NCBI GenBank assembly: GCA_016302525.1
Contig: JAEDNJ010000030.1
Span: 1-11,950 of the forward strand
Reading direction: 5' to 3'
Origin: Phascolarctobacterium sp.
GTDB taxonomy: Bacteria; Bacillota; Negativicutes; Acidaminococcales; Acidaminococcaceae
Length of the DNA: 11,950 bases
The notes beneath the pieces are model-generated. The model was given only the letters and a program-made list of their open reading frames with translations. It did no database searches and had not been told where the DNA came from. A program made the position numbers and the translations under genes. Position 1 is the first letter of the stretch; each line of letters begins with the position of its first letter. Of the stretch, positions 8,501 through 11,950 are shown one piece after another.

Positions 8501-8553
8501 TAACACTTGTTGTGCTTCCAGTGCTCTATGCTATTGTGTTCAAAATCAAATAG
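5527..8553 (+). CDS. RND efflux transporter permease (AcrB/TriC-like)
   Basis: A 1008-residue inner-membrane pump of the hydrophobe/amphiphile efflux RND family, driven by proton influx. The N-terminal membrane segment is about 15-36; two large periplasmic loops (about 40-335 and 545-865) contain the porter domains; membrane segments cluster at 340-490 and 870-1005. The proton-relay pair in TM4 is intact: GMLVDDAIVV with D403 and D404. In TM10 the position held by the relay lysine of AcrB (K940) is arginine here (GTIIRNSMVLVDQ, R921), as far as motif alignment can show. The ATG overlaps the adaptor stop as TAATG, with GGAAG about 10 nt upstream. There is no outer-membrane factor gene next to it, so the channel must be encoded elsewhere. 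Substrates cannot be deduced. It ends 2 nt before the 54-bp repeat that contains its terminator. Confidence 0.94.
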   Translation: MKQANWAEWSIKHRQLVYFFAVLTFLSGFFAWFSMGRSEDPTFTVRTMLVSTVWPGATAKEVEMHITEKLEKQIQNIPQIDKIVSQSRPGTSVIEVSFKDNLKKDLVRQRLIETRNMVEDIKRKLPPGVYGPYYNDRFDDVYGNIYALSGEGYSYEDMRKYGEQIKLEFSYIKDVKRVELIGVQPERIYIQMETDKLAQLGLDVSSLAAMINAQLSVNASGMVDTDKTNTYLRLTGNADSVQEIAALPINANGKVFRLGDIATIKRGYADPAESKFYYNGQPAIGIALSMEDGGNNLDLGENVAKAIAKIQKDLPLGLELNQVANQPEVVKSSIAEFSESLWEAIVIVLVVSLFTLGRRSGYVISCCIPLILLGSFAAMYAMNIDLQKISLGTLVLALGMLVDDAIVVVELMELKMSEGMERIEAASYAFKTCAWPLLTGTVITCLGFMPIAFSESASSEFCYSLFPVMSVTLLLSWVVSATLAPVLGYEWIRPTVIKKESFDSSFYKMLRSLLHWSLTHRLAVITITLITLGTSLFLARFVKQEFFPSSVRPELLVEINLPEGSSRLATDAAAQKLTAAILKDKDLDHVSTYVAEGAPRFVLVISPVTPRDNYAQLVIVAKDLEGRQRLDQKIRELAPTLIPEAITHNKTIPLGPPTDYPVMLRVRGSDIAKIKEIALKVRQVMAANPNINVTHVDWLTESNVLKLTIDNDKLLQLGLTRQTVANALQAQVSGYTVAQYLEGDQEISVVFRLNPKERADLSQIGTVSIPTAKGAIPLSQVAKLDYGTEDNIIWRRNLLPTITVSGGIIEGTTGNDVTKQVYQELAELRKQLPLGVSIDIGGPLEESQKTLKKLLAPIPIMLLLIVILLMLQMQDIRKLLVVMITAPMGIIGVILGLLFFNSTLGFMSELGVLALTGTIIRNSMVLVDQIQQHLDAGMAPLQAVTESAIVRFRPIMLAAFTTVLGLVPLFFSSFWNPMAVAISCGLTGATLLTLVVLPVLYAIVFKIK

Positions 8554-8555
8554 GC

Positions 8556-8609
8556 TTATGAGCAAAAAAAGCTGTACCCACCCTAAAAAGTGAGTACAGC
8601 TTTTAATAT
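8556..8609 (+). repeat. 54-bp direct repeat, left copy (target-site duplication)
   Basis: Base-for-base identical to 11701-11754. It abuts the left end of the transposon at 8610 with no gap, so it has the geometry of a target-site duplication. It begins 2 nt after the RND stop codon and contains a full intrinsic terminator: AGCTGTAC (8570-8577) pairs with GTACAGCT (8594-8601), flanked by seven A and four T. This copy is probably the original terminator position of the efflux operon. Confidence 0.9.
8564..8606. terminator. Intrinsic terminator of the RND operon (left copy)
   Basis: An 8-bp perfect stem, AGCTGTAC/GTACAGCT, is extended by A/T pairs on the outside and CAC/GTG pairs on the inside. 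The T-run on one strand and the A-run on the other make it usable in both directions. Confidence 0.88.
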
Positions 8610-8690
8610 TGTTATTGCTAAGCCATCTCGTCCACCAGTAGACCAGTATTTTTGTCCGCCAGTTGCTCAAATCTTTGTCCAGGCTAAGGC
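8610..8690 (+). repeat. Transposon left end with repeated transposase-binding sites
   Basis: The terminal TGTTAT is followed by three spaced sites. Site 1 starts near 8629 (CGTCCACCAGT), site 2 at 8653 (TGTCCGCCAGTTGCTCA) and site 3 at 8676 (TGTCCAGG). The steps are 24 and 23 nt, i.e. roughly two helical turns. Sites 1 and 2 share GTCC-x-CCAGT. The layout matches the right end position by position. Confidence 0.82.
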
Positions 8691-8692
8691 CT

Positions 8693-8718
8693 GAAAAGGC
8701 AGGCGGCTGTGCCGCCTG
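8693..8718 (-). terminator. Terminator of the transposon operon
   Basis: A GC-rich hairpin CAGGCGGC-3-GCCGCCTG (8700-8718) is followed on the minus strand by CCTTTTC, just after the stop of the ATPase gene. The T-tract is short, so its strength is uncertain. Confidence 0.6.
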
Positions 8719-8723
8719 TCAAA

Positions 8724-9536
8724 TCAAACTCCAGATAACATTTCGTTCTCTGCTACATAGCGCACAATGTGCTCATCAATCAGCCGTTTTTGCTGCTGTG
8801 CAGCATACATAAGGCTTTTTTCGCAGAACCTGTTAATCAGCCTAGGGATACCCGTGGTCTCTTTGTAGATATCATCAATGGCCCTTTCAGTGAAGATTTC
8901 CTGTTGAGGACATTCCGAATAAGCCAGATGGCTCTTAATATACTGCTCCGTTTCATATCGCTCCAGATGCGGCAGAACACAGTTAATATCTATTCTCTGC
9001 CTAACAGCAGCGTATCTTTGGAGCTTTAACTTGTCCCATAGCTCGGATTGTCCTACCAATACTAGAGCCATAGGACTCATTGAATCAAAATTGTAGTTCA
9101 GAAGGAAACGGAATTCTTCAATGGTTTCCCTTTCAAGAAGGTGTGCCTCATCTAGCACACAGACTACCTTTTTCCTTCTAACTCCACGTATAATTTCAAT
9201 TTCTTTCTGTAGTTGCCGCTTAGCATCTCCTCTGTAGTATCTGGATTCAACGCCCAACTGGTCGAGCATTCCTTTGTAAAACCACCGAGGAGTCAGCTTG
9301 GAATCGGACAAATACAGTAGAATATAACTTTCGCTAGGCAGTGCAGCAGAAAACTTTCTAATGAGAGTGGATTTTCCACACCCTGAATCAGCTGTTACAA
9401 CAACAAACAGCTGCCGGTCTGCTGCATAACACAATCTTCCTAAAGCATCTGCCATAGAAGATGACTCATATAGTCTGTTGGCAGGTACATCCCTAGTGAA
9501 TGGCAAATTTTTCATGCCAAAGTATTCCTCATACAT
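8724..9536 (-). CDS. ExeA/TniB-type AAA+ ATPase, transposition accessory protein
   Basis: A 270-residue AAA+ ATPase of the ExeA/TniB/MuB/IstB type, which selects target DNA and activates the transposase. The N-terminus MYEEYFGMKNLPFTRDVPANRLYES is typical of ExeA-like proteins. Walker A is TADSGCGKST (48-57), with Ala where the first Gly of GxxxxGKS is usual. Walker B is VVCVLDEAH (124-132), the sensor region is LVGQSELWDKL, and GIPRLINRFCEKSL (229-242) lies in the C-terminal lid. It starts 3 nt after the transposase stop; AAGAGGTG within the end of the transposase gene serves as its ribosome binding site, so the two are coupled. In the related systems this partner governs target choice, so it is a candidate for the terminator preference suggested by the insertion site. 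Confidence 0.92.
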   Translation of the reverse strand: MYEEYFGMKNLPFTRDVPANRLYESSSMADALGRLCYAADRQLFVVVTADSGCGKSTLIRKFSAALPSESYILLYLSDSKLTPRWFYKGMLDQLGVESRYYRGDAKRQLQKEIEIIRGVRRKKVVCVLDEAHLLERETIEEFRFLLNYNFDSMSPMALVLVGQSELWDKLKLQRYAAVRQRIDINCVLPHLERYETEQYIKSHLAYSECPQQEIFTERAIDDIYKETTGIPRLINRFCEKSLMYAAQQQKRLIDEHIVRYVAENEMLSGV

Positions 9537-9539
9537 CTG

Positions 9540-10931
9540 CTACACCTCTTTCTTGAAAATCTGAAATGAAATTGCGTTAGCCCTGCGGTTGTTGCTTTCC
9601 TGTCGTTTCTTTTCCAAACCTTTCAGGAAACGAGACTCTTTAGGCTTAACCGGAAGCATACACTGCGGAATAGCAGGCTTAGGGTCACAATATTCACCAA
9701 TTTTCAATGGTTTAGCTGTAAAAGGTTCAATGCCCGGATAGGATACTGTAATAATTTCCTTAGCTGCCGGGTCATAACTAATCTCTACTTTGGCACCAAT
9801 GAGAGATGTAGATACTTCATACTTCTTGCCGTCAAAGCTAATGCAGGCTCCCTTGTCCACAATTCTATTCTCGTGGTGGAGAAACGCTGCGGCAACAGTA
9901 TTTACATCAATAAAGCGCAGCTGCCGAGTATCTCTGTTGAATTCCTGTAAAGGCGTAATGCCATTGGCAGGAACTTTGAGACCTCTGCTGGAGTAATATT
10001 CTTTAATGCCCTCATGGGGCTTGTTGAGATAATACTGCTCAACCCACAGATTCCAGTAATAGTTGGCCTCTTCAAGGGTTCTCACATTCTGAGCCTTGCA
10101 TTCATTAACATAGGAGTTAATGAACCTGTTAAACACCTCTACCTTGCCTTTGGATTGGCATGCTCTGGGCTTGGCTCTTAAATGTCTAATGCCAAGCATG
10201 CTCAAGGTATTAATCAGCTGTCTACTAATGAACTGCTTGCCGTTGTCAACATAGGTAGTGTCGAATGCGCCATATTTCAGGATGGCTTTACGGTAAGCAT
10301 CTTCTACAATCCATGCTTCCTGGTCACCATAGATGCCCGAGCCAAGAATCATCTTGGAATGGTCATCAATAATAACCACCGCATAGGTTTGCACCATCTT
10401 CCCGTTAGGACCAATAGGCAGCTTCATGGTGTACTTAATGTCAGCCTGTGCAAGCATCATACGGTGAGGTTTGCAGAATCTTTTGGATGAGGCTTCACTT
10501 GCTTCAGCAAACTTCTTGAGCTGCTTTTTACCAAAACCTGCATCATAGAGGTATCTTTGCAGGGTAGAACGCTTTAATACTCCCGGAGGAGCAATCCCTT
10601 CCATTTCCATAATCATAATAATCTGGCTAATGGACCTTGTGGGGACCTCGCGTTTTAGCTGTATAGCTTCATCCCTGTATTTGGCATAATCTGCTTGTAG
10701 AGGCTTAACATGGGTATAGGTTTTGGATTTTGGCTTCAAGCCTTCAAAGCCTTTGGCTTTATAAATTTGTAGCCACCGCCTAATGGTGCGCTCCGAGCAG
10801 TCGTTGTTCAGGGCTATCTGTAGCTTGAGCTTCACTGCTTTGGCTTGATCCAGTGTCGGATCAAGCAGAGGAGCAATAATTTGGTATTTCTTTAAAGCTG
10901 TGTTATCTGCACTGCTTGTGGATGTTATCAT
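9540..10931 (-). CDS. Mu/TniA-type DDE transposase (rve integrase core)
   Basis: A 463-residue transposase that cuts and joins the element ends. An N-terminal helix-turn-helix region (SERTIRRWLQIYKAKGFEGL, 46-65) is followed by a second helical DNA-binding region (about 80-135). The RNase H-fold core carries D164 (AQADIKYT), D229 (TTYVDNGKQF) and E265 (KGKVEVFNRF), giving DD(35)E. After the NKPHEGI motif (303-309) come a Mu-type C-terminal beta-barrel (about 345-415) and a basic tail that would contact the ATPase. The frame extends upstream to a TTG at 10982, but the ATG at 10929-10931 has AAAGGAGGG (10939-10947) 7 nt ahead and is the true start. It is followed 3 nt later by the ATPase gene. 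All catalytic residues are present, so the element may be active. Confidence 0.94.
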   Translation of the reverse strand: MITSTSSADNTALKKYQIIAPLLDPTLDQAKAVKLKLQIALNNDCSERTIRRWLQIYKAKGFEGLKPKSKTYTHVKPLQADYAKYRDEAIQLKREVPTRSISQIIMIMEMEGIAPPGVLKRSTLQRYLYDAGFGKKQLKKFAEASEASSKRFCKPHRMMLAQADIKYTMKLPIGPNGKMVQTYAVVIIDDHSKMILGSGIYGDQEAWIVEDAYRKAILKYGAFDTTYVDNGKQFISRQLINTLSMLGIRHLRAKPRACQSKGKVEVFNRFINSYVNECKAQNVRTLEEANYYWNLWVEQYYLNKPHEGIKEYYSSRGLKVPANGITPLQEFNRDTRQLRFIDVNTVAAAFLHHENRIVDKGACISFDGKKYEVSTSLIGAKVEISYDPAAKEIITVSYPGIEPFTAKPLKIGEYCDPKPAIPQCMLPVKPKESRFLKGLEKKRQESNNRRANAISFQIFKKEV

Positions 10932-11007
10932 CTGGCATCCCTCCTTTGAGTATAATTTAACCCAAAAGATGCCGGCCAGCAAAACAAAGCAGGTGCATAC
11001 TTATTTA

Positions 11008-11520
11008 TCAGGATGGAAGCATTACTCCACCCTGGTTGTAGATAACACGAATAATAGACTCAAGCCACTTTTGGCTGCTTTGCTTAATATAGGAAATCCA
11101 AGATTCATGGTAAAATAATATTTCTTTTTTGAAGTCAGAAAGCTTGTATTGGGCAGACCGGAGATAGCCTTCAATATTATCCCTGTTGCCAGTAAACCAC
11201 TGTTGCCAACGCTCCATTGTTTTAGCACAGGGATAATCTTCGGAGTCCAGGTCTTCCGTTGTCACAACACCATCCAAAACTCCGGCAATAACTTCAGTTC
11301 CATAGTGTTTGTATGGAACTAAGATGTCCGTTAGACAGGTGTGGAAACGGCCGCAGTGCTCACAGCGGTACCTGTTGACAACAATATGAGCACATTCACC
11401 GCCTTCCTGCTTATATATGCGTTTACGGTTATCTCTATACTTGAGTTCACCACCGCAAATTGGGCAGGGAGGGATGGTCGGCCTGCCCTTAATGAAAAAT
11501 ATTTGATTCTTGGTTGTATT
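11008..11520 (-). CDS. DUF6431-like zinc-ribbon protein of the transposon; start codon unclear
   Basis: An open frame of up to 170 codons, stopping 76 nt before the transposase start. A C-terminal fragment could start at a TTG at 11275-11277, but the frame continues upstream with conserved-looking sequence: FFIKGRPTIPPCPICGGEL, then RYRCEHCGRFH and DILVPYKHYGTEVIAGVLDG. Two CxxC pairs (C19/C22 and C53/C56 counted from 11520) suggest a zinc ribbon. The HYGTEVIAGVLDG and TMERWQQWF segments look like a helix-turn-helix. This matches the DUF6431 proteins that accompany such DDE/AAA elements; their role is unknown, though DNA binding is plausible. Oddly, no ATG, GTG or TTG precedes the conserved part in frame. 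Upstream is ATG-AGC-TAG (11521-11529). Either a rare ATT start (11491-11493) is used, or the gene carries a nonsense mutation at codon 3. Confidence 0.72.
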   Translation of the reverse strand, partial: NTTKNQIFFIKGRPTIPPCPICGGELKYRDNRKRIYKQEGGECAHIVVNRYRCEHCGRFHTCLTDILVPYKHYGTEVIAGVLDGVVTTEDLDSEDYPCAKTMERWQQWFTGNRDNIEGYLRSAQYKLSDFKKEILFYHESWISYIKQSSQKWLESIIRVIYNQGGVMLPS

Positions 11521-11544
11521 CTAGCTCATACTCTGATATAATGA

Positions 11545-11610
11545 CCATGGTTTTATAACCACCATGGACTCCAGAGTATTGTCGTGTCAGGATAAGGGAC
11601 TCTGGAGTCC
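11545..11610. repeat. Paired inverted repeats in the transposon right sub-terminal region
   Basis: A perfect 12-bp inverted repeat, GGACTCCAGAGT (11566-11577) and ACTCTGGAGTCC (11599-11610) with a 21-nt loop, is followed on the plus strand by TTTCCTTTT, so it can act as a rightward terminator. Directly to its left is a second inverted repeat, CCATGGT (11545-11551) and ACCATGG (11561-11567). On the minus strand both would form in any transcript entering from the right, just ahead of the first transposon gene. They could shield it from read-through expression. Confidence 0.65.
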
Positions 11611-11619
11611 TTTCCTTTT

Positions 11620-11700
11620 CTCAGCATATGGACATTATACTGAGCATTTTGCGGACAGTCAACCAGAGCAAAAATCGGTCATTTTTTGAGGTCTATAACA
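11620..11700 (-). repeat. Transposon right end with repeated transposase-binding sites
   Basis: Read inward on the minus strand from 11700: TGTTAT, then site 1 (TGACCGATTTTTGCTC, near 11681), site 2 (TGTCCGCAAAATGCTCA, from 11657) and site 3 (TGTCCATATGCTGA, from 11634). TGYCC/TGACC and TGCTC recur at the same internal spacing, and the 24- and 23-nt steps equal those of the left end. Confidence 0.82.
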
Positions 11701-11754
11701 TTATGAGCAAAAAAAGCTGTACCCACCCTAAAAAGTGAGTACAGCTTTTAATAT
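11701..11754 (+). repeat. 54-bp direct repeat, right copy (target-site duplication)
   Basis: Identical at all 54 positions to 8556-8609 and directly adjacent to the ATAACA terminus of the transposon. It carries the same terminator hairpin (stem halves at 11715-11722 and 11739-11746). Confidence 0.9.
11709..11751. terminator. Duplicated intrinsic terminator (right copy)
   Basis: The same AGCTGTAC/GTACAGCT hairpin with A- and T-runs as after the RND gene. Here it insulates the transposon from the downstream transcription unit. It could stop leftward read-through into the element as well as rightward transcripts leaving it. Confidence 0.85.
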
Positions 11755-11821: not shown

Positions 11822-11850
11822 TTGACAAACTCAAGCTTATGTTCTATAAT
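11822..11850 (+). promoter_or_regulatory. Full-consensus promoter of a short RNA
   Basis: TTGACA (11822-11827), 17 nt, TATAAT (11845-11850): both hexamers and the spacing are perfect for the housekeeping sigma factor. The predicted start is near 11857. A short partial palindrome CTAGTATGCTAG (11796-11807) lies just upstream. Confidence 0.9.
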
Positions 11851-11856
11851 GGAGCT

Positions 11857-11946
11857 AGAGAGGTGCTGCCGATAGTGGTTAGCCCTTATATTTGAAGATC
11901 AAACACGACCGCAAAGTTTAGGGGACTAGCGGTCGTGTTTATTTTT
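11857..11946 (+). ncRNA. Small structured RNA or attenuated leader, unrecognised
   Basis: The transcript from the consensus promoter would run about 90 nt to an intrinsic terminator. Its 5' part folds into a hairpin (11862-11885): GG/CC, GCT/AGC and GCC/GGT pairs around a GATAGT loop, with single-base bulges. TTGA/TCAA (11892-11902) can form a mini-stem. No open reading frame with a ribosome binding site is visible inside. It does not match the SRP RNA, 6S, tmRNA or the common riboswitch classes that I can recall. It may be a stand-alone sRNA, or a leader whose terminator is regulated for a gene beyond the window. Confidence 0.5.
11901..11946 (+). terminator. Terminator of the small RNA
   Basis: A perfect 12-bp stem, AAACACGACCGC (11901-11912) with GCGGTCGTGTTT (11929-11940), has an inner AGT/ACT pairing in the loop and is followed by ATTTTT. 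Strong and unambiguous. Confidence 0.9.
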
Positions 11947-11950
11947 ATAA

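Follow-up and report, generated by a model that had tools for sequence, protein, structure and literature searches.

Tn7 and Tn5053 duplicate 5 bp of their target when they insert, while members of the IS481 family are single-gene insertion sequences (ISs) of about 1–1.5 kb. Unusually long target duplications, of 16–28 bp, are described for one subgroup of the IS1202 group in PMC10132070, which also gives a length of about 1.5 kb for ISAjo2-type elements and models the ISAjo2-type transposase on TnsB.

Single ISs are also known from the junction of directly repeated host segments. In Pseudomonas fluorescens SBW25-Dup-IS, two copies of a 59,943-bp segment have a newly acquired IS481 between them and are reported to lack a target duplication; the authors prefer to explain this by entry of the IS into a DNA break that was already there, and regard a transposase-driven duplication as unlikely (PMC11708052). 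Evolved E. coli populations have yielded 'unflanked' amplifications, in which a single IS joins the copies of a locus; they are explained by a model of repeated replicative transposition from one sister chromatid to another. In this E. coli set all unflanked cases involve IS1, their median length is 26 kb, and a single sister-to-sister step of the model also places a second IS to one side (PMC13423834).

Here we describe a bacterial transposon that is bordered on both sides by the same 54 bp of host DNA, a length far outside what its relatives leave behind. We favour the explanation that this is an ordinary DDE and AAA+ transposon whose two ends became attached, on two copies of the locus, at points that lie 54 bp from each other, and give this reading a probability of about one half.

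Results

The window, by which we mean the whole stretch of 11,950 nt that was analysed, is apparently an entire metagenome contig, and all observations on the repeat come from this one contig (n = 1). Directly 3′ of an RND efflux gene, whose stop lies at 8553, a 54-bp segment (8556–8609, plus strand) adjoins the left end of the element, and an identical segment (11701–11754, plus strand) adjoins the right end. This direct repeat, already noticed in a preliminary description of this DNA, is perfect, and such a match at both ends of an element is far beyond chance; the next-longest direct repeat in the 3.65-kb stretch spans 20 bp at 80% identity. When lengths from 1 to 59 bp were tried at the edges of the element, only 1 bp and 54 bp matched, leaving the edges free to slide by 1 bp and revealing neither a hidden 5–7-bp duplication nor any other edge repeat of 2–53 bp. 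The right flank open to checking comprises 196 bp beyond the repeat and contains no second IS. The long duplication rests on this single case and is not a demonstration of a new transposition behaviour.

The element itself (8610–11700, minus strand) is 3091 bp long, with the ends TGTTATTG and CTATAACA (TGTTAT...ATAACA), an end type common to its relatives. Read inwards, the two ends are TGTTATTG and TGTTATAG, the element closing with the inverse of the latter; the two match at 7 of their first 8 bases and at 8 of their first 20. Subterminal motifs recur at equal distances, with CGTCC at +20, TGTCCGC at +44 and TGTCCA at +67 in the left end (8610–8681, plus strand) and TGACC at +20, TGTCCGC at +44 and TGTCCA at +67 in the right end (11629–11700, minus strand). 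The preliminary description had placed the last two motifs at +43 and +66 on each side, which are the same positions counted from 0. It had also placed the ends correctly: TGTT...AACA is kept in relatives, many of which carry 5–7-bp duplications directly outside it, and the contigs of several relatives begin or end exactly at these element ends. A location of the ends elsewhere was therefore rejected.

Two candidate promoters lie in this region. One, near-consensus (TTGACT-17-TATAAT, 11/12; 11662–11634, minus strand), is situated inside the right end between the repeated motifs, where transposase binding might regulate the element's own operon. The other, a perfect consensus (TTGACA-17-TATAAT), lies within 11822–11950, about 100 bp before the end of the contig, and a hairpin with 12-bp arms is found at 11901–11940. 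Short pieces just upstream of and at the −35 of this second promoter match weakly in many genomes of the presumed host family (E 0.006 or more), and a search of 59 such genomes with the right flank as a whole gave only short, weak matches (best E 0.0064). Our guess is that 11822–11950 may hold the beginning of a repeated operon, of rRNA or of another kind, at which the assembly broke.

Three genes are carried by the element, all on the minus strand. The DDE transposase (9540–10982; 480 aa from a TTG start) has an HTH, an rve core (3e-10) and a weak Mu-transpos_C match (20.8 bits against a cut-off of 21.7), the last of these domains being present in the precomputed domains of many of the 120 transposase relatives listed. 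Residues D181, D246 and E282 are invariant in an alignment of 37 transposase sequences and likely form the catalytic triad, as predicted from this conservation. The best NCBIfam match of the transposase is IS481 (NF033577, 145.3 bits over residues 55–327), below the curated cut-off of 224. Among solved structures, the transposase family profile matches TnsB in its N-terminal part, with an E-value of 9.2e-10 for the whole sequence and no stretch passing alone, and, with part of the core, retroviral integrases as well. The AAA+ ATPase (8724–9536; 270 aa) scores higher with AAA_22 (5.3e-21) than with TniB (24.7 bits, cut-off 22.4); its TIGR03015 match lies below the cut-off, and a comparison with solved structures returned no match. 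The preliminary description had rightly classified the element as a DDE/AAA+ transposon.

The third gene (11008–11520), an open frame from stop to stop, encodes a small cysteine-rich protein that we call DUF6431-type because three closed plasmids annotate DUF6431 in the same gene order (DUF6431, DDE transposase, AAA); a fourth plasmid has no annotated DUF6431 at that place. A family scan of an 89-aa part of this frame gave no match, the TniQ/TnsD target protein included, and no TnsA or resolvase family was matched in the three scanned reading frames, of which the third was represented by the 89-aa part only. In the region 11477–11560, no ATG precedes the cysteine motif of the DUF6431-type frame, and an MVII...-like start, as seen in some relatives, lies just upstream in another frame, so that an interruption of this gene, or frameshifting in its expression, is possible.

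The repeated 54 bp contain a 38-nt hairpin (arms of 15 bp, loop of 8 nt), and the repeat extends beyond it by 11 nt on one side and 5 nt on the other. Neither this hairpin nor the third gene figures in the preliminary description of the repeat. We compared the ten best RND loci, with 61–72% protein identity to the RND protein of the window. One locus (L126) is cut off by the end of its contig, which leaves nine with readable sequence past the gene; eight of the nine have a hairpin-plus-T terminator at the same position, starting at most 36 nt from the end of the match, and at L122 the script detected none. No tandem terminator was present in the nine relatives with 1 kb of downstream sequence, where direct repeats that begin in the first 110 nt past the RND gene reach 12 bp at most. 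This comparison identifies the 54 bp as host DNA, the predicted terminator of the RND gene. That they are part of the element was rejected, since the elements of relatives stop at the TGTT end and the terminator hairpin follows the RND gene in these eight loci. With no tandem terminator in the RND relatives, one copy in the window is native and the other extra.

The closest RND locus compared at the DNA level is ~72% identical in protein. The 120 relatives listed include an RND protein 88% identical to that of the window, and the nearest named ones among them are from Phascolarctobacterium, at ~71%, which makes a member of that family the probable host. The searches turned up neither an empty site nor a second copy of the locus, nor a genome of the same species. 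Searches of viral contigs gave 0 exact matches each for the 38-bp hairpin and for both element ends and nothing informative for the RND protein, and Rfam found 0 matches in the window at the gathering score.

A scan of a genome collection yielded 114 confirmed transposase relatives, of which 80 loci were kept and joined by two from viral contigs to give 82 loci (L001–L082). Judged by title, the relatives in the collection come mostly from Lachnospiraceae and other Clostridia, while in 59 genomes from the presumed host family the transposase gave only one match at E up to 1e-60; in its host the element is thus probably a visitor.

To find the element ends we used a position-specific model built from 13 copies including the window, first picked with a bonus for duplications of at least 4 bp; this bonus favours the finding of duplications and does not work against long ones. 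A copy was kept if it started with TGT and ended with ACA, if both ends scored at least 7 and if both flanks had 8 bp. The 34 copies kept comprise 31 of the 82 loci plus L104, L138 and L143; left out were L083–L103, which repeat genomes or copies already reached, L105–L112, which are partial or distant, and the remainder of L131–L144, which failed the rule. Adding L151 and L155 by hand brought the sample to 36, with ~40–62% protein identity; three plasmid relatives (L156–L158), whose ends could not be fixed, were not counted.

Exact duplications of 5–7 bp flank 19 of these 36 relatives, the other 17 have 0–2 bp, and none has more than 7 bp. Among the 34 copies kept by rule, 17 have duplications of 5 (two), 6 (nine) or 7 bp (six), and 17 have 0 (ten), 1 (four) or 2 bp (three). 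The number without a duplication is an upper limit, since one end scores under 10 in L002, L014, L054 and L069; L064, counted there, matches over 6 bp with one mismatch. Duplications of 6 bp were found at both copies on a 3.5-Mb contig of one genome, at a copy on a Planococcus plasmid (L155) and at a copy (L151) that is interrupted by ~1.36 kb of other DNA at 849–2210. The family to which the element belongs thus normally leaves a 5–7-bp duplication.

A screen for exact direct repeats of at least 13 bp, which covered 2.6 kb to either side of the transposase match and is free of the bias of the end model, found none at element ends in the 82 loci and speaks for the 31 of them with both ends and flanks. 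Its single repeat was a 13-mer in L060, away from the ends, against 54 bp in the window. Around relatives that lack a short duplication, the 16 bp beside each end are not repeated elsewhere in the fetched locus; this is weak evidence, since assemblies from short reads would hide long duplications. A comparison by eye of the flanks of copies in one genome (G004) showed no match of the kind expected from reciprocal exchange. Four loci (L010, L030, L060 and L072) have two recognised ends and no target duplication, and are possible rearrangement junctions.

Taken together, these lengths refute a fixed wide cut for relatives of ~40–62% protein identity. The preliminary description had offered as one option that the family makes an extraordinarily wide staggered cut; the counts lend this no support, and the check named there, on flank repeats of transposase relatives, turned up short duplications, the very outcome it had listed as contradicting the idea.

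A terminator-like hairpin by the hairpin-plus-T rule lies within 80 bp of the insertion, on either side, in one of 18 relatives with a 5–7-bp duplication, a count that covers all 19 duplication-bearing relatives except L155. The idea of a terminator-seeking element is unsupported by this frequency. In a Lachnospiraceae contig (L016, 3514–3577), an element with a 6-bp duplication lies ~40 bp from a CRISPR-repeat-like sequence, which we take to resemble a type I-E repeat.

Discussion

The locus most likely records a one-off accident of insertion or recombination, and not a new way of transposing. Under the favoured explanation, the two ends of the element would have been joined on either side of the RND terminator, which would thereby be duplicated. 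This could have happened by inter-sister transposition, either replicative or break-associated, or by recombination inside the element between two alleles that carried it on either side of the terminator. The product would have the order host–terminator–IS–terminator–host, with one IS where the two copies of a 54-bp direct duplication meet. We infer the participation of two copies of the locus. In the published model one step would also place a second IS to one side, and the 196 bp to the right contain none; the favoured reading therefore calls for two steps, for a partner without an IS or for allele recombination. Two nearby insertions are not favoured, because relatives show no preference for terminators.

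In such a product the normal duplications would be expected to be separated, so flanks without an edge repeat of 2–53 bp fit the favoured reading; the 17 of 36 relatives that also lack an exact 5–7-bp duplication look as rearrangement would leave them. Transposition tends to be replicative in DDE/AAA+ systems that lack a TnsA-type nuclease, a tendency that would, by analogy, fit the same reading. A duplication of 54 bp would be unusually small against the published kilobase-long ones. For this one case, the second option of the preliminary description, a repair- or replication-linked route, comes close to the favoured explanation and may apply.

Among the alternatives, the best placed, although unlikely, is a chimera, in which two strains had the element inserted at opposite sides of the terminator, the left part of one being fused to the right part of the other by metagenome assembly through the identical element. 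Such a join is consistent with a window that is apparently a whole metagenome contig, with an element of 3.1 kb that exceeds the length of a short read, and with several short contigs of relatives whose flanks lack a 5–7-bp duplication. It requires, however, two independent insertions in the same orientation 54 bp apart, in a family without terminator preference.

Next in order, and rather improbable, comes a hairpin-assisted wide cut, in which the transposase would attack the two strands at the two flanks of the terminator hairpin, extruded or single-stranded, and gap repair would produce a genuine 54-bp target duplication. The placement of the repeat edges just outside a hairpin with 15-bp arms argues for it, as does the coincidence that the sole long duplication also spans a strong hairpin, when so few short-duplication relatives have one nearby. 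Against this stand the sample of one, the arithmetic, in that 54 bp minus the 38-nt hairpin leaves 16 bp and not 5–7, and the open-access literature searched, which showed no precedent for it in a DDE transposon nor for any 54-bp or hairpin-linked long duplication. Slightly less likely again is the general proposition that a DDE/AAA+ transposase can target a folded terminator hairpin, cut on either side of it and duplicate the whole structure.

Insertion exactly at the boundary of a pre-existing tandem pair of terminators would yield perfect copies on both sides. A normal insertion there would leave a 5–7-bp edge repeat, where only 1 bp and 54 bp match, and an insertion free of any duplication would have to hit the boundary precisely; direct repeats starting in the first 110 nt past the RND gene also do not exceed 12 bp in nine relatives. 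The missing short repeat at the window's edges makes this reading very improbable, nearly excluding it. That the whole family makes very wide staggered cuts is suggested by the window alone and can be practically dismissed, with 19 of 36 relatives at 5–7 bp, 17 at 0–2 bp, none longer, and no direct repeat of at least 13 bp at the ends in the 31 of 82 loci with both ends and flanks.

If the favoured reading is true, the window offers a natural case, on a very small scale, in which an IS has joined two copies of a locus; it shows that an apparent giant target duplication can stem from an inter-copy event and warns against inferring duplication length from single copies. If the hairpin-assisted cut were true instead, the rule of a fixed duplication length per transposase family would be broken, the length being set by the shape of the target DNA and not by the transposase, and elements so inserted would keep a host transcription stop on both sides. 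Also, the relatives supply a measured duplication length, 5–7 bp, for an element of the DDE/AAA+/DUF6431 type, which occurs mostly in Clostridia; in the open-access literature searched, DUF6431 turned up in one paper.

Compared with known systems, the element resembles the IS481 family in that NF033577 is the best NCBIfam match of its transposase, and differs from it in falling short of that model's cut-off (145.3 against 224 bits) and in its 3091 bp with three genes, including AAA+ and DUF6431. With the IS1202 group it shares the resemblance to TnsB seen in the ISAjo2-type transposase; unlike in the long-duplication subgroup, long duplications are not common to its relatives (0 of 36 above 7 bp), and the element measures 3.1 kb against ~1.5 kb. 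From the Tn7/Tn5053 type it is set apart by a TnsB match in the N-terminal part only and by relatives that duplicate 5–7 bp; it may differ as well in Mu-transpos_C, which scores just below the cut-off, and in a DUF6431-like third gene in place of a recognised TniQ. In other respects it is like the TnsB/TniA plus TniB transposons (Tn7-like and Tn5053-like), with an rve-core DDE transposase, a TniB-like AAA+ partner and repeated subterminal motifs, and its transposase has a remote match to TnsB among solved structures.

As a duplication, the locus differs from SBW25-Dup-IS and the unflanked amplifications in size (54 bp against ~60 kb and a median of 26 kb), in its source, one contig as opposed to laboratory populations, and, from the unflanked E. 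coli cases, which are all IS1, in the DDE/AAA+/DUF6431 type of its element. Like SBW25-Dup-IS, the window element has no short target duplication, and as in both published settings one IS lies between two direct host copies, with no IS seen outside them (on the right, within 196 bp).
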